Shown: piece by piece, positions 36,403 to 42,733 of the stretch
Layout: each line of letters begins with the position of its first letter
How positions within the stretch are numbered: position 1 is the first letter of the stretch
Source: Lachnospiraceae bacterium
Lineage (GTDB): Bacteria; Bacillota; Clostridia; Lachnospirales; Lachnospiraceae
DNA length: 42,871 bases
Direction of reading: 5' to 3'
Assembly (NCBI GenBank): GCA_017482485.1
Contig: JAFUMV010000116.1
Span: 1-42,871 of the forward strand
Translations under genes and position numbers: made by a program
Notes under the pieces: model-generated
Databases searched by the model: none
Told to the model about the DNA's origin: nothing
Seen by the model: only the letters and a program-made list of their open reading frames with translations

Positions 36403-37227
36403 CTATTTTTCGTATAAAAACTTCTCCGGCAGCGTCACCCCAAAATCCCTTGCCAGATCTTTAAAATTCTGCACGGTGATGGTCTGCAGCTTGTCAGGAC
36501 GCATGGAAAGCATCTTCACAAGAATTTCCGCGGATTTCTCCACGGTGTGTGCCAATCCGAAAGTCAGGTCAAAATCTTCCCCTGCGCAGAACATGCCATG
36601 GTGCGCCCAGATCGCAACATCATATTTCTTCATCAGCTCACTGGTGGCAACCGCAATCTCTCTGCCGCCGGGAACCATCCACTCCACAACGCCTACGCCG
36701 TCAGGAAACACCACAGGACATTCAGTTGCCATCTCCCAAAGCTCTCTGGTAAACACTTCATCTTTCAGGGGCAGTACAAAGGTCAGCGCAATGATATTGG
36801 TGGCATGGCAATGATATACCACACGATACTTTTCATTCTGCAGCTTTTTCACTTCCAGATTCATTAAGTGACTGGGCAGCTCACTTGTGGGTCTTCCGCC
36901 GTTTACAAGGCCCCAGCAGATACGGTATTTTTCACCAGCTTGATCCACTTCGATGATGCAGATAGAATCCTCGGGATCTCTCATCACATTGCGGAAGTAT
37001 TTGCCGCTGCCGGTCACCAGGAAATATTCTCCTGCCATAGCAGGAACCGTGATGCCGATTTCTTTCCATTCCCCGTCTTTTTTCAATTCTTCTCTCACGC
37101 TTTCGATCTCTTCTGTCCTGATTCGATAGCTTAAATTACCGCCGTTTCTTTCATGCCAGCCCTGCTGCCAACCGTCATCTGCCATTCTCATAAAGCCCTG
37201 TACAAAGGGCGCATTCAATACCTTCAT
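36403..37227 (-). CDS. rhaD: L-rhamnulose-1-phosphate aldolase
   Basis: Class II (zinc) aldolase that splits rhamnulose-1-phosphate into DHAP and L-lactaldehyde. 274 residues, the E. coli length. The zinc ligands are in HCHATN (two His near 140-143) and AHHGMF (His near 212). The catalytic Glu is in PTSELPSHL. Family blocks WHERNGGNLSYR and VTGSGKYFRNV are clear. It follows rhaA by 53 bp in the operon rhaB-rhaA-rhaD. No lactaldehyde reductase or rhamnose mutarotase gene is adjacent. Confidence 0.97.
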   Translation of the reverse strand: MKVLNAPFVQGFMRMADDGWQQGWHERNGGNLSYRIRTEEIESVREELKKDGEWKEIGITVPAMAGEYFLVTGSGKYFRNVMRDPEDSICIIEVDQAGEKYRICWGLVNGGRPTSELPSHLMNLEVKKLQNEKYRVVYHCHATNIIALTFVLPLKDEVFTRELWEMATECPVVFPDGVGVVEWMVPGGREIAVATSELMKKYDVAIWAHHGMFCAGEDFDLTFGLAHTVEKSAEILVKMLSMRPDKLQTITVQNFKDLARDFGVTLPEKFLYEK

Positions 37228-37280
37228 GATTTTCCTCCGTATTAAAGCGATAAATGCGCTTTTCTTTTATTATAACCCTG

Positions 37281-38534
37281 TTAAATTCTTCTGGAAAGTA
37301 CTTCCTGTTCATACCGCTTCACTTCCGCATACCAGTCTTCTTTGCCGGGTACACCGTTGATTTCACAGAAATAATTCCATACGTCTCCTACAGGATAAAG
37401 TTTCATTTCTTCCTGCAGCATCTGCAGTTCTGTGAAGCTTCCGGCATTTTGCATTTCCTGTAATCTGGTATATGGCTGCAGAAGTGCAAACAGCATTGCT
37501 TTCTGCATGTTGCGCATGCCAACCACCCAGGCACTGATCCGGTTGATGCTGGCGTCAAAATAGTCCATTGCAAGAAATACCCGGTCCATTGCGTTGTTGC
37601 GAACGATTTCCTTCGCGATTTCCTTTGTTTCATCATCGAACAAAACAACGTGATCGGAGTCCCAGCGAACGGGTCTTGACACATGCAGGGCCAGCTTTTC
37701 GTTAAAAAGCAGCATGGAGGAAATTTTATCGGAAACCACCTCGGTGGGATGATAATGGCCGGTGTCCATCAGACTTAAAATTCCCTTTTTCGCTGCATAG
37801 TTCACACAGAATTCGCTGGACCCGACGGTGTAGGATTCCAGCCCGATGCCGAATACCTTGGATTCCAGACAAACATATACTTTTTCCTTATCATAGGGAA
37901 CGGATAAAATCTGATCCAGAGAATCTTTGAATCTGGCTCTGGGACCCAGACGGTCAGCCGGAATGTCCTTAAGCCCATCCGGAATCCAGATGTTCATCAC
38001 ACAGGGCTGTCCCAGTTCTTCTGCAAAATACTGGGAAATACGGACGCATGCCTGTCCATGCCGAATCCAGAACTGACGAATTTCTTCATCATTGCTGGAC
38101 AGTGTTAAGCCTTCTGCCTTTTTATGAGAGAAAAATGTAGGGTTGAAATCCAGACCAATCCCTCTTTCTTTGGCAAACTCCACCCACCTTTTAAAATGCT
38201 TCGGCTCTATGGCATCACGATCCACATGCTCACCTTTTTCAAAAATTGCATAACAGGCATGGAGATTGAGTTTGTGTTTGCCGGGCAAAAGCTTTAACAC
38301 CTGATCAATATCCGCCATTAATTCCTCCGGCGTACGTGCTCTGCCGGGATAGTTGCCGGTGGTCTGAATGCCGCCGGACAGCGGACCATCCTGATCAAAG
38401 CCTTTCACATCATCGCCCTGCCAACAGTGCATGGAAATGGAAAATCTGCTCAGCATTTCCAGCGCTTTCTGGGTGTCAACCCCCACTGCTGCATACATTT
38501 CCTTTGCGGATAAATATCTTTCCTGTGTTGTCAT
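37281..38534 (-). CDS. rhaA: L-rhamnose isomerase
   Basis: Isomerises L-rhamnose to L-rhamnulose with divalent metals. 417 residues. Family blocks: SMHCWQGDDVKGFD, GGIQTTGNYPGRARTPEEL, GLDFNPTFFSHKKAEGLTLSS, MDTGHYHPTEVVSDKISS (metal ligands) and HVSRPVRWDSDHVV. No insertions or losses are seen. Second gene of the rha operon, 67 bp after rhaB. Confidence 0.98.
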   Translation of the reverse strand: MTTQERYLSAKEMYAAVGVDTQKALEMLSRFSISMHCWQGDDVKGFDQDGPLSGGIQTTGNYPGRARTPEELMADIDQVLKLLPGKHKLNLHACYAIFEKGEHVDRDAIEPKHFKRWVEFAKERGIGLDFNPTFFSHKKAEGLTLSSNDEEIRQFWIRHGQACVRISQYFAEELGQPCVMNIWIPDGLKDIPADRLGPRARFKDSLDQILSVPYDKEKVYVCLESKVFGIGLESYTVGSSEFCVNYAAKKGILSLMDTGHYHPTEVVSDKISSMLLFNEKLALHVSRPVRWDSDHVVLFDDETKEIAKEIVRNNAMDRVFLAMDYFDASINRISAWVVGMRNMQKAMLFALLQPYTRLQEMQNAGSFTELQMLQEEMKLYPVGDVWNYFCEINGVPGKEDWYAEVKRYEQEVLSRRI

Positions 38535-38601
38535 CTTTTTTTCCTCCTGAAATTTATATCAATCTCTTTTTCTTTCTGCTCCGAACAGTTCCTGCTTTTT
38601 G

Positions 38602-40005
38602 TTATCCCGGCTGAAATATTTTTATTTCACTGGAAGCAAAGATGCAGCTTCTTGCCGCTTTCAGATCTGCAAGTTCACCTTCCCGTATCATCTGTGCCGC
38701 CAGATTGCCGATCGCAGTTGCCTCAGAAGGCCCTGCATAAACTGTTTTTTGGGTCGCTTTGGCGGTAAGCTGATTTAAATAATCTGCATTGGATCCGCCG
38801 CCAACAATATGTAAGCTGTCATACTGCACCCCAATATGCGCTTCCAGTTTCTGTACCGTTTCCCGATAACACTCTGCCAGGCTGTTATAAATTACACAGG
38901 CCAGTTCTCCGGCGGTTTTTGGCACCTGCTGGCCGCTTTTTTTGCAAAAATCCTGTATTGCCGCGACCATAGAATCCGGTGCCAGAAAAGATGCATCATT
39001 ACAGTCTACAATGGAAGGAATCTTTTCCTGTTCTGCCATTTCACACAGCTGCGCAAAGGAATACTGCCTGTTATATTCATTTCTGACAGACTGAATCATC
39101 CACAGCCCCATGATGTTTTTCAGATAGCGGAAGCGGTAGTCATACCCTCCTTCATTTGTAAAATTCATCATTTTGCTTTCCAAAGAGCAGTCAGCTTCCA
39201 TCCGCTCCACGCCAAGCAAAGACCAGGTTCCTGAACTGATGTAAAGCACGTTTTCCGAATTGGAAGGAACCGCAGCAACCGCTGATCCTGTATCATGGGT
39301 TGCCGGAAGTACCACCTGGCAGTTAAAACCAACCTCTTTTGCCACTTCTTCTTTCAGTTGTCCCAACACCGTTCCCGGCTTTAAGATTTCACCGAATATT
39401 TTCTGCGGATAGCCCAGCATACCAATCAGCTCTCTGTCCCAGTCCTTTTTTTCGGGATCGATCAGCTGTCCTGTGGTGGCGTTGGTGTACTCCACCGCCT
39501 TTTTGCCGGTCAGCAGATAGTGAAAATAGTCCGGGATCATTAACAGACTTTCTGCAGCATTTAAAATTTCCGGATGCCTGTCCTTTACTGCCATCAGCTG
39601 ATAGATCGTGTTAAAAATTGCCTTCTGTATACCGGTTCTTTCATAGAGTTCTTCTTCTGAAATGATGGCATATACTTTTTCATCCATCCCTATGGTCCGC
39701 TTATCACGATAACCGACCGTGTTTCCCAAAATTCTGTCCGCACTGTCCAGCAGCACGAAATCCACGCCCCAGGTATCAATGCCCATGCTTATGGGTATTT
39801 TTTCGAGCTCTGCGCATTTTTTCATGCCGGCTTTGATCTCTCCAAACAGTTGTTCCAAATCCCAGCAAAGCTCACCATCTTTAGAAGACATACCGTTTTC
39901 AAATCGATACACCTCCTGCGTCACCATGCGGCCATTTTCCAGATGTCCAAGAATATGTCTGCCGCTGGACGCCCCGATATCTACCGCAAGATAATACTTT
40001 ATCAT
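38602..40005 (-). CDS. rhaB: Rhamnulokinase
   Basis: FGGY-family kinase that phosphorylates L-rhamnulose at O1 with ATP. 467 residues. The N-terminal phosphate-binding DIGASSGRHILG, the sugar-site block GIDTWGVDFVLLD, and the C-terminal ATP-site block LHIVGGGSNADYLNQLTA and EATAIGNLAAQ are all present. It is the first gene of the operon, transcribed away from the AraC-type regulator, with the ribosome binding site GGAGGG just before the ATG. Confidence 0.97.
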   Translation of the reverse strand: MIKYYLAVDIGASSGRHILGHLENGRMVTQEVYRFENGMSSKDGELCWDLEQLFGEIKAGMKKCAELEKIPISMGIDTWGVDFVLLDSADRILGNTVGYRDKRTIGMDEKVYAIISEEELYERTGIQKAIFNTIYQLMAVKDRHPEILNAAESLLMIPDYFHYLLTGKKAVEYTNATTGQLIDPEKKDWDRELIGMLGYPQKIFGEILKPGTVLGQLKEEVAKEVGFNCQVVLPATHDTGSAVAAVPSNSENVLYISSGTWSLLGVERMEADCSLESKMMNFTNEGGYDYRFRYLKNIMGLWMIQSVRNEYNRQYSFAQLCEMAEQEKIPSIVDCNDASFLAPDSMVAAIQDFCKKSGQQVPKTAGELACVIYNSLAECYRETVQKLEAHIGVQYDSLHIVGGGSNADYLNQLTAKATQKTVYAGPSEATAIGNLAAQMIREGELADLKAARSCIFASSEIKIFQPG

Positions 40006-40050
40006 GTTATCCCTCCTTTTTTGATCCCCTTATCCTCTTATTATGGTTCC

Positions 40051-40079
40051 ATTTTAACAAACCTCTCTTGCAGGAAAAA
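40051..40079 (-). promoter_or_regulatory. Probable activator-dependent promoter of rhaBAD
   Basis: Minus strand: TAAAAT (40051-40056) with a poor -35 (TTTTTC at 17-base spacing), 46 bp before the rhaB ATG. A weak -35 just downstream of direct repeats fits AraC-type activation. Confidence 0.45.
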
Positions 40080-40086
40080 GCACGCC

Positions 40087-40114
40087 ATTTGCACAAAAAT
40101 ATGACCTGATTTGC
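40087..40114. promoter_or_regulatory. Direct repeats, probable AraC-type operator of the rha genes
   Basis: ATTTGC occurs at 40087-40092 and 40109-40114, exactly 22 bp apart (two helical turns); a related ATTTGA is at 40138. The pair abuts the rhaB promoter and lies between divergent rhaB and the AraC-type gene. Confidence 0.5.
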
Positions 40115-40122
40115 GTTTTCTG

Positions 40123-40151
40123 TTGTATCCGCAGCAGATTTGAGATACACT
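40123..40151 (+). promoter_or_regulatory. Probable promoter of the AraC-type regulator gene
   Basis: TTGTAT (40123-40128), 17-base spacer, TACACT (40146-40151), 41 bp before the ATG. Confidence 0.45.
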
Positions 40152-40192
40152 ATAAGCAAACGGATCCTTCACAGACCAGAAAGAGTATTCCT

Positions 40193-41167
40193 ATGAGAAA
40201 AGAAATTATTGACGAACTGATCAAAATCACGCCGGAAGAACAGGAAATTCTGAATGGAAGAACCGATGTGGACACCGCACTCTATAACCTGAGCGCCTCC
40301 ATGATTGTGGATGCAAAAGCCTTTCTGGAACAGGGCAGACTCATTGAACTGCGTCCCCATACCCGTTTTATCCATTTTCCAAAGCATACCCATAATTATG
40401 TGGAAGCGGTCTACATGTGTTCGGGACAGACCACCCATATCATCAATGGGAATACTGTTCTTTTAAAAGAAGGGGAGCTGCTTTTCTTAAGTCAAAATGC
40501 GACGCAGGAAATCCTTCCGGCTTCCTATTCGGATATTGCGGTCAATTTTTTTATCCTGCCTGAATTTCTTGACCGCACCCTGGATATGATCAGGGCGGAA
40601 AATAACCTGATTCGCACTTTTTTGACAGACTGTCTTAAAAGCGGCAACGGACAGGTCAGCTATCTCCATTTCAAAGTCGCAGATGTGCTCCCGATTCAAA
40701 ATCTTGTGGAGAATCTGATCTGGATGCTTTTACATAGGCAGCCAAACAAAAGAAGCTTAAACCAGACCACGGTAGGACTGCTTTTTTTACACCTGCTAAA
40801 CTTCACGGATAAAATGGAAATCGGCAAAGATCACCTGGACCAGGAACTGACCTTCACCGTCCTTGGATATATTGAAGAACACTATCGCGACGGAGAGCTT
40901 TCTGTCATCGCACAAAAATATCATTATGATTTATACCAGCTAAGCCGTATGATCAAAAACACCACCGGCAGGACCTGGACAGAGCTTCTGCAGGAAAAGC
41001 GGCTCAATCAGGCCGCCTACCTGCTTCGCACCACTGCTCTTTCCATCACGGATATCGGCCTGGACGTGGGCTACAGCAATTTCAGTTATTTTTACAAAAT
41101 TTTCCGACAAAAGTACGGCTGCTCTCCCCGGGAATATCGAAAAAAAGTACTCTCTGCATCGAACTGA
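40193..41167 (+). CDS. AraC family transcriptional regulator, probable rhamnose activator
   Basis: 324 residues. An N-terminal cupin-like sensing domain (KHTHNYVEAVYMCSG, then VLLKEGELLFLS) is followed by a C-terminal pair of helix-turn-helix motifs. The first is in LSVIAQKYHYDLYQLSRMIK, the second in ALSITDIGLDVGYSNFSYFYKIFRQKYGCSPREYRKK, the standard AraC/XylS signature. It is divergent from rhaBAD with 187 bp between the genes and probably activates them in the presence of L-rhamnose; the effector is inferred from position only. The ATG at 40193 has a weak AAAGAG ribosome binding site. Confidence 0.93.
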   Translation: MRKEIIDELIKITPEEQEILNGRTDVDTALYNLSASMIVDAKAFLEQGRLIELRPHTRFIHFPKHTHNYVEAVYMCSGQTTHIINGNTVLLKEGELLFLSQNATQEILPASYSDIAVNFFILPEFLDRTLDMIRAENNLIRTFLTDCLKSGNGQVSYLHFKVADVLPIQNLVENLIWMLLHRQPNKRSLNQTTVGLLFLHLLNFTDKMEIGKDHLDQELTFTVLGYIEEHYRDGELSVIAQKYHYDLYQLSRMIKNTTGRTWTELLQEKRLNQAAYLLRTTALSITDIGLDVGYSNFSYFYKIFRQKYGCSPREYRKKVLSASN

Positions 41168-41255: not shown

Positions 41256-41320
41256 AAACTTGTCTTTTTTTATATCATGTAACAGTTTTCTAAAATTGTA
41301 TACGGAGGATGAGTTAAAAC

Positions 41321-42733
41321 ATGAGTGGTTTTTTTGGCGTAGCATCAAAGGAGGATTGCGTATTTGACCTGTTTTTCGGAACAGACTACCATTCCCACCT
41401 TGGCACAAGGCGTGCCGGTATGGCTGTATATAACAGCAAAGATGGCTTTAACAGAGCAATTCACAACATTGAAAACGCTCCTTTTCGTACCAAATTTGAT
41501 AAAGAAGTGGAACGCATGCACGGATATATGGGTATCGGATGCATTTCCGACTATGAACCCCAGCCCCTGATCATTCGTTCCCACCATGGAACTTATTCCA
41601 TCATGACCATCGGCAAAATCAACAACACCGATGATATCGTAAACAAAATTCTTTCCACCTCTCCCACCCATTTTCTCGAAATGAGCGGCGGTGACATTAA
41701 CGCTACAGAGCTTGTCGCAACCCTGATCAACCAAAAGGAGAATCTGATTGAAGGAATTTCATATGCCCAGGAAATCATCGATGGCTCCATGTCCATCGTA
41801 CTGATGACTCCCAAAGGTATTCTGGCAGCCAGAGATAAAATGGGCAGAACTCCTATTTCTCTCGGGAAAAAGGAGGATGCTTTCTGTCTTGCATTTGAAG
41901 GTTTCTCTTATCTGAACCTTGGTTATGAACCGCTGCGGGAGCTGGGCCCCGGCGAAATTGTCATCATGACACCCGAAGGCGTCCGCACTCTGGTAGAGCC
42001 CGGTAAGGATATGAAAATATGTACCTTCCTCTGGATTTATTACGGATATCCGTCTTCTTCCTATGAAGGCATCAGCGTTGAAAAGATGCGCTATAACTGC
42101 GGTGCTGCCCTGGCAAGAAGAGATGCCGGTTCCGTTCAGCCTGATATCGTAGCCGGTGTTCCGGATTCCGGCGTTGCACACGCTATCGGCTATGCGAATG
42201 AATCCGGAATCCCCTATTCCAGACCATTCATCAAATATACCCCTACATGGCCTCGTTCTTTCATGCCTACCATGCAAAGCAAGCGTAACCTTATTGCAAA
42301 GATGAAGCTGATTCCGGTTCACGATCTGATTCAGGACAGAAGCCTGCTTTTGATTGACGACTCCATCGTCCGCGGTACACAGCTTCGGGAAACCACAGAA
42401 TTTTTATATAAAAGCGGTGCGAAACAGGTGCATATCCGCCCTGCCTGCCCTCCCCTTTTATACGGCTGTAAATACTTAAACTTCTCCCGTTCCACTTCCG
42501 ATATGGATCTGATTACCAGAAGAGTGATCCTGGAAATGGAAGGTGACAACAAATATCCGAACCTGGATATTTACGCCGATCCTGACAGCCCACAGTATCA
42601 TGAAATGATCAATCGGATCTGCCAGCAGCTGAATTTCACTTCTCTTCGTTACCATCGTCTGGATGACATGATTGAATCTGTCGGCATCGACAGAAATAAA
42701 CTCTGTACTTACTGCTGGGACGGCCGAGAATAA
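41321..42733 (+). CDS. Amidophosphoribosyltransferase-like protein with degenerate glutaminase domain
   Basis: 470 residues with the PurF domain order. The N-terminal Ntn-hydrolase domain starts MSGFFGVASKEDC, where PurF has the nucleophile Cys1 (CGIFG-type); here it is Ser. The oxyanion block expected as HNGN reads TIGK and the Arg of the GHVRY-type block is missing. The phosphoribosyltransferase domain is well kept: VPDSG near 290 and the PRPP loop LLLIDDSIVRGTQ near 345. Cys residues in RPACPPLLYGC and LCTYCWDG match the [4Fe-4S] ligands of Bacillus-type PurF. No other purine gene is adjacent. It may use free ammonia or have another role; the true purF should be elsewhere. The ribosome binding site GGAGG is 12 bases before the ATG, a long spacing. 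Confidence 0.85.
   Translation: MSGFFGVASKEDCVFDLFFGTDYHSHLGTRRAGMAVYNSKDGFNRAIHNIENAPFRTKFDKEVERMHGYMGIGCISDYEPQPLIIRSHHGTYSIMTIGKINNTDDIVNKILSTSPTHFLEMSGGDINATELVATLINQKENLIEGISYAQEIIDGSMSIVLMTPKGILAARDKMGRTPISLGKKEDAFCLAFEGFSYLNLGYEPLRELGPGEIVIMTPEGVRTLVEPGKDMKICTFLWIYYGYPSSSYEGISVEKMRYNCGAALARRDAGSVQPDIVAGVPDSGVAHAIGYANESGIPYSRPFIKYTPTWPRSFMPTMQSKRNLIAKMKLIPVHDLIQDRSLLLIDDSIVRGTQLRETTEFLYKSGAKQVHIRPACPPLLYGCKYLNFSRSTSDMDLITRRVILEMEGDNKYPNLDIYADPDSPQYHEMINRICQQLNFTSLRYHRLDDMIESVGIDRNKLCTYCWDGRE

Follow-up and report, generated by a model that had tools for sequence, protein, structure and literature searches.

A Lachnospiraceae PurF paralogue that has lost its glutaminase features, putatively an ammonia-dependent PRPP aminase

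In a 42,871-nucleotide stretch of Lachnospiraceae DNA (the window, meaning the whole of the stretch analysed), the gene at 41321..42733 on the forward strand encodes a 470-amino-acid PurF-like protein that is probably a glutaminase-dead PurF, making 5-phosphoribosylamine (PRA) from PRPP and free ammonia. An ammonia-dependent role in PRA synthesis is favoured because the glutaminase residues have been lost clade-wide while those of the phosphoribosyltransferase (PRTase) half and the Fe-S positions are kept, and because the paralogue replaces PurF in genomes that encode PurD, PurM and PurN, often within pur operons. From the replacement and the operon position we strongly infer that the protein would supply PRA, and from the loss of the glutaminase features we infer that its nitrogen donor would be free ammonia. 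PRPP would be aminated in the conserved PRTase site with ammonia taken from solution, and PurD would use the resulting PRA. Ammonium is high in the gut. In genomes that encode both forms, canonical PurF may operate under nitrogen limitation and the paralogue when ammonium is plentiful. PurF, a textbook glutamine amidotransferase, catalyses the committed step of purine synthesis. If the proposal is true, annotations of such proteins as glutamine-dependent, or of their pathways as lacking PurF, would need correction; insensitivity to glutamine antagonists would be predicted at the PurF step, and nitrogen status may set which purine entry gut Clostridia use.

The reading frame is intact (470 codons from an ATG start, with no internal stops), and its translation bears out the N-terminus MSGFFGV described in the first-pass annotation, in which Ser occupies the position of the Cys nucleophile. 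An in-frame TAA stop (41315..41317; all window coordinates are on the forward strand) lies two codons 5′ of the ATG, with one AAC codon between. It therefore leaves no room for an N-terminal extension, a propeptide or an earlier start exposing a Cys, the last of which the annotation had named as a possible refutation. A GGAGG at 41304..41308, 12 nt before the ATG, is from its sequence the likely ribosome-binding site. Against the NCBIfam purF equivalog model TIGR01134 the protein scores 182 bits over residues 3-388, below the cut-off of 350. Its best solved relatives in a phmmer search are 1ao0 and 1gph (E ~5e-45, far beyond chance), which we take to be the glutamine PRPP amidotransferase PurF of B. 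subtilis. A canonical purF, for which the annotation had advised looking, is present elsewhere in the same genome, so the window gene is a paralogue, as had been proposed. The gene stands alone here, close to the contig end. Upstream, at 36403-41167, lie L-rhamnose genes (aldolase, isomerase and rhamnulokinase) with a divergent AraC-type regulator. No riboswitch was detected within the window at the gathering threshold, and around the gene promoters and terminators were matched about as often as in shuffled sequences.

The losses in the glutaminase half are shared across the clade. They were assessed in an alignment of 144 paralogue rows, representing 143 distinct sequences since the window gene enters twice, with 40 canonical PurFs; the functions attached below to canonical residues are those we take from the PurF literature. 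At residue 2 (Ser in the window gene; 41324..41326), the position of the PurF catalytic Cys1, paralogues have Gly (121/143) or Ser (22/143) and never Cys, which occupies it in 40/40 canonical sequences. Ser2 can be ruled out as a substitute Ntn nucleophile because Gly takes its place in those 121 members. The canonical LQHRGQES block is replaced by HSHLGTRR (41390..41413). The Arg-bearing glutamine loop, whose absence had already been suspected, is deleted at the I75-S76 junction (41543..41548) in all 143 distinct paralogues and is present in 97% of canonical PurFs. In place of the oxyanion-hole HNGN stands TIGK (residues 96-99; 41606..41617), again in agreement with the earlier description; across the clade the canonical AHNGN becomes mostly xT(V/I)G(K/R), with the Asn of HNGN replaced by Val, Ile or Thr. 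The protein thus falls outside PurF (EC 2.4.2.14) by its score, the missing Cys1, the missing glutamine loop with its Arg and the missing Asn-Gly oxyanion motif. Sequencing error, against which the annotation had argued, is ruled out by the occurrence of the same losses in 142 other distinct homologues.

The PRTase half has kept its PRPP site, as the first pass also noted. The PRPP-binding loop LIDDSIVRGT spans residues 344-353 (42350..42379), and IDDSIVRGT is invariant in a 52-row alignment and conserved at 97% or more in both the paralogue and the canonical group. K305, R312, K329 and R351 are found in every aligned paralogue, Q319 and R322 are also kept, and Q354, immediately after the loop, occurs in all members. 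By these residues, the PRPP-binding loop and the type I PRTase core of PurF are present. Cysteines likewise persist at four positions that we take to be the Fe-S ligand positions of B. subtilis-type PurF, as had been recognized: Cys234 (42020..42022) and Cys383 (42467..42469) in 143/143 paralogues, and Cys462 and Cys465 of the CTYC motif (residues 462-465; 42704..42715) in 142/143 each.

One segment of this half has changed. Residues 305-315 (KYTPTWPRSFM; 42233..42265) correspond to canonical KNxYVGRTFI, presumably, on the basis of the E. coli PurF literature, a flexible loop lining the ammonia channel. K305, R312 and F314 are as in canonical PurF, and most other positions have shifted to a new near-fixed consensus. 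A new consensus on the acceptor side, together with the universal Q354, would suit a phosphoribosyltransferase whose acceptor is a different amine or base, the PRPP site then serving to make another product. This alternative, also raised in the first-pass annotation, is nonetheless very unlikely, since the paralogue lies in pur operons, occupies the purF slot in some of them and replaces PurF in PurD-bearing genomes, as set out below.

The N-terminal domain shows no sign of decay. Mean pairwise identity among paralogues, over 3000 random pairs, is 68% for residues 1-230 and 73% for residues 231-470. Where one locus holds both genes (24 loci), conservation of the paralogue matches that of canonical PurF (mean pairwise identity 84.2% vs 83.3%), which rules out a decaying copy. 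In this domain 31 positions, Met1 included, are invariant at 97% or more among paralogues and rare in canonical PurF; they include C13, H24, S25, H48, R56, K58, S76, D77 and N127. The domain is thus, to judge from its sequence, not vestigial and looks like a rebuilt site, a feature that counts against the ammonia-dependent reading insofar as it goes beyond plain loss of function, which does not explain it. A glutaminase half rebuilt to cut another amide, with Cys13 (41357..41359) as the new nucleophile, would make use of a residue found in 141/143 paralogues and 0/40 canonical sequences and of the new invariant polar residues H24, S25, H48, R56, K58, S76, D77 and N127. Such an amidase is highly improbable: for Cys13 to become N-terminal the first strand would presumably have to be removed, the two members without Cys13 have Val or Ala there, and an oxyanion motif of known kind is absent.

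The paralogue is widespread and, in a subset of genomes, is the only PurF-like protein encoded. In a contig scan, from which the best 80 of 359 encoding loci were kept, the named loci are mostly from Lachnospiraceae. Within a phylum-level sample, it occurs at E <1e-180 in 28 of 398 genomes, the window's own included, under 13 family codes as counted by eye; one genome (G194) has two copies. Among 396 sampled genomes of the window's family, sorted into classes by hand, 120 have canonical PurF only, 33 the paralogue only, 239 both and four neither. Here "both" was assigned from match counts, as the paralogue with one or more further matches, and includes one genome (G435) in which the canonical purF is divided between two frames. 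That split gene (L283, 886-2338) follows, by eye, a GS-III-like ORF and consists of two overlapping frames; an intact paralogue is present in the genome, and the split may reflect either misassembly or gene decay. Two genomes that seem intermediate (G580 and G706) have a full-length match at 62-76% identity in two pieces.

Genomes with the paralogue alone were compared with the rest of the pathway in view. The set comprised 35 genomes, the 33 from the family sample plus G393 and G339 from the phylum sample, with three genomes classed as both serving as controls. A PurF above the NCBIfam cut-off was found in 0/35 paralogue-only genomes and 3/3 controls, and PurD, PurM and PurN each exceeded their cut-offs in 34/35 paralogue-only genomes. 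As a genomic pattern, then, the paralogue replaces PurF. The genomes are mostly drafts, in which single absences can be assembly gaps; one paralogue-only genome (G662), rated 100% complete and assembled as one contig of 2.15 Mb, keeps PurD, PurM and PurN. A frameshifted canonical PurF was also sought in the paralogue-only genomes, and among the matches listed down to 1e-10 a further one covering the PRTase half occurred in G707 alone. There, the C-terminal (PRTase) half of the model for purF matches a 462-aa ORF (L142, 6663-8051) at 102 bits; the ORF sits, by eye, among polysaccharide-type genes. In a quick tree of 75 paralogues, built without bootstrap and with 35 members labelled as paralogue-only and 40 as both (from match counts or an in-locus purF), the absence of canonical purF cannot be explained by fewer than 15 changes, and starred branches make 10 of these obligatory. 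According to work in Salmonella, routes that bypass PurF have never satisfied the requirement for purines (PMC3485032). A source of PRA is therefore to be expected in the paralogue-only genomes, and these predict an enzyme that acts alone on ammonia.

The same genomes bear on readings in which the protein serves canonical PurF. An obligate subunit of canonical PurF is ruled out by them as a general rule. A regulatory pseudoenzyme making no PRA, which would form mixed oligomers with canonical PurF or act as a PRPP or nucleotide sensor tuning PurF or pur expression, would agree with the operon shared with canonical purF at some loci and with an N-domain conserved at its 31 paralogue-specific positions. 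It is distinctly unlikely, given 35 genomes with no canonical PurF over the cut-off, of which 34 have PurD, PurM and PurN, and given K305, R312, K329 and R351 of the PRTase site in every aligned member. Genomes with neither form of PurF provide a contrast that favours the ammonia-dependent reading: in 16 such genomes from the phylum or family sample (PurF over the cut-off in 0/16), PurD exceeds its cut-off in 3/16 and PurN in 2/16. The three that still have PurD count against it, as does one paralogue-carrying genome (G339, locus L140, 92% complete) with no PurF, PurD, PurM or PurN over the cut-offs.

Gene neighbourhoods were tallied at 70 paralogue loci with a minimum length of 10 kb, counting as neighbours the same-strand genes no more than four called ORFs away; at two loci (L270 and L107) the paralogue was not placed. 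Near the paralogue were found purB at 32 loci, purF at 20 and purC at 19, and where these are linked the order is purC-purF-purB-paralogue. None of the tallied pur or nitrogen-assimilation genes was near it at 38 of the 70, which, like the absence of PurD, PurM and PurN from G339 and the rhamnose neighbours in the window, speaks against a role in PRA synthesis. Some operons place the paralogue where purF would be. In G784, the order is purC-purB-paralogue-purA, without canonical purF. In G550 it is purE-...-paralogue-purM-purN-x-purH-purD, in G377 purE-purC-paralogue-purM-purN-x-purH-purD, in G554 purE-paralogue-purM and in G571 purC-paralogue-purM (purE and purC of the last two identified by eye). 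In these last four genomes the paralogue fills the usual purF slot, before purM. Paralogue-only genomes that keep PurD, PurM and PurN, and the pur operons, make ammonia use the best supported of the options first put forward for this gene, as far as genomic patterns can indicate; the other product suggested alongside it is disfavoured by the same replacement and operon data.

At the head of the G377 operon, some 50 nt 5′ of purE and in the same orientation, lies a ZTP (ZMP/ZTP) riboswitch (L275, 10338-10418). Across 34 related loci no riboswitch recurred, the single elements being this one and a c-di-GMP riboswitch at L095. Between purN and purH, at L144 (11069-11833), lies a 254-aa ORF that is also found in other pur operons and has no NCBIfam match at 1e-20. 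It is possibly a separate IMP cyclohydrolase, a suspicion raised because the adjoining PurH matches a formyltransferase-only model.

The paralogue may be compared with several known systems. It resembles PurF (EC 2.4.2.14) of B. subtilis and E. coli in its homology over both domains, its PRPP loop, the Lys and Arg residues of the catalytic loop, four cysteines at B. subtilis-type Fe-S positions and, at many loci, a purine operon context. It differs in lacking Cys1, the glutamine loop and HNGN, in its altered channel loop, in an identity of only ~30% and in a score below the cut-off. By sequence it would thus act like an ammonia-dependent PurF, yet it stands outside PurF by the defining glutaminase features. 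In E. coli, PurF Cys1 mutants are described as keeping the ammonia reaction and losing the glutamine reaction (PMC3261824). The same report, in its account of crenarchaeal PurF′, describes PurF-like proteins without an N-terminal Cys that form a separate conserved cluster and lie near purF and other pur genes, and its authors suggested a role as an ammonia-dependent PRPP aminotransferase (Brown et al., 2011; PMC3261824). By that published description, the paralogue is like PurF′ in the absence of an N-terminal Cys and in the linkage to pur genes and purF at its loci, though not in this window. Each Crenarchaeon described in that report also has a real PurF, whereas here 35 genomes have the dead-glutaminase form only. 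The idea of an ammonia-dependent PurF is therefore already published for crenarchaeal PurF′; among the papers listed in a literature search confined to open-licence PMC articles, none described a bacterial PurF that lacks the glutaminase. A bacterial clade without a working glutaminase half that replaces PurF makes the 2011 archaeal suggestion experimentally approachable.

Loss or omission of a glutaminase has parallels in other enzymes. The glutaminase of carbamoyl phosphate synthetase 1 (CPS1) is of the unrelated triad type, a glutaminase domain is missing from the putative ammonia NadE, and AsnA and AsnB are not related. The paralogue is unlike the ammonia-using NadE (NadE-NH3) in that it keeps a conserved former glutaminase domain. 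In vertebrates, CPS1 is described as having kept its glutaminase-like domain, with the catalytic Cys changed to Ser in the human enzyme, and as using free ammonia with an altered tunnel (PMC4655335). Going by that description, the paralogue is like CPS1 in retaining a glutaminase-like domain without the catalytic Cys, although the chemistry of CPS1 differs. AsnA and AsnB are presented as an isozyme pair with one product, split by nitrogen donor (PMC3854871), and NadE-NH3 and NadE-Gln as donor-split isozymes, with NadE-Gln genes often beside a PII gene (PMC7196632).

A second enzyme associated with the paralogue looks, from its sequence and gene context, as if it too has been freed from its glutaminase. 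CarA is the glutaminase subunit of carbamoyl phosphate synthetase, and in E. coli CarB alone can use ammonia. A carB directly adjoins the paralogue in eight genomes (L014, L093, L098, L127, L151, L157, L269 and L272), one of which is Anaerostipes sp. 992a, and further copies of the same CarB clade occur in G226 and in the window's genome, where a contig end truncates the gene (L294, L299). A comparison of ten searched genomes plus L014 placed these CarBs in a separate group, with 70-91% identity within it and 41-50% to other CarBs. carA was in the locus for 0/8 clade copies examined and 8/9 other CarBs, the ninth of which (G551) has none. A PRA-making paralogue fed not from solution but with ammonia channelled to it by a separate glutaminase or another amidase would agree with the genomic evidence for PRA synthesis, and the channel loop, altered yet strongly conserved, might provide a new site for docking or entry. 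This version is unlikely: inspection by eye of the 25 neighbour families most frequent across 108 paralogue loci showed no glutaminase, and the adjoining CarB, a synthetase subunit, comes without the CarA that normally serves as its glutaminase.

The neighbours of canonical purF also speak for the ammonia-dependent reading. Gene contexts were compared in 39 genomes with both forms and 39 with canonical PurF only, the 80 handles having been hand-picked and two of them (G435 and L237) dropped. Within five called ORFs of canonical purF, genes for GS-III, amt, gltB, gltD or asnB (asnB by eye) were found in 18/39 genomes with both forms vs 0/39 canonical-only genomes, and pur genes in 20/39 vs 36/39; five of the 39 + 39 loci had neither kind of neighbour. 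At L237, looked at separately, purB lies beside purF with no nitrogen genes. The association gives a Fisher's exact p of 6e-7 among genomes that are related, and the trait changes five times on the PurF tree. In a tree-aware test it was not significant because too few independent pairs were available (two in the same direction, none opposite and four equal; median p 0.5). A search for glutamine riboswitches at ten of these nitrogen-cluster loci found none. The association is a good lead toward a nitrogen-status switch, not proof of one. A broader scheme is tentatively conceivable, and somewhat doubtful, in which Clostridia hold two interchangeable nitrogen sets for nucleotide synthesis: a glutamine-fed set of canonical PurF and CarAB, kept with the genes for GS-III, ammonium transporter and GOGAT, and an ammonia-fed set of the present PurF and the carA-less CarB, this PurF having had its glutaminase domain rebuilt as a new conserved ligand site and having repeatedly become the sole PurF. 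In the window's genome, canonical purF lies in a nitrogen cluster (L178, G000:C80, 138-15998), flanked by an Amt-PII fusion, followed by glmS, and by glutamine synthetase III; the same cluster contains pyrG, gltB and gltD, diverging, and similar clusters are found in its relatives.
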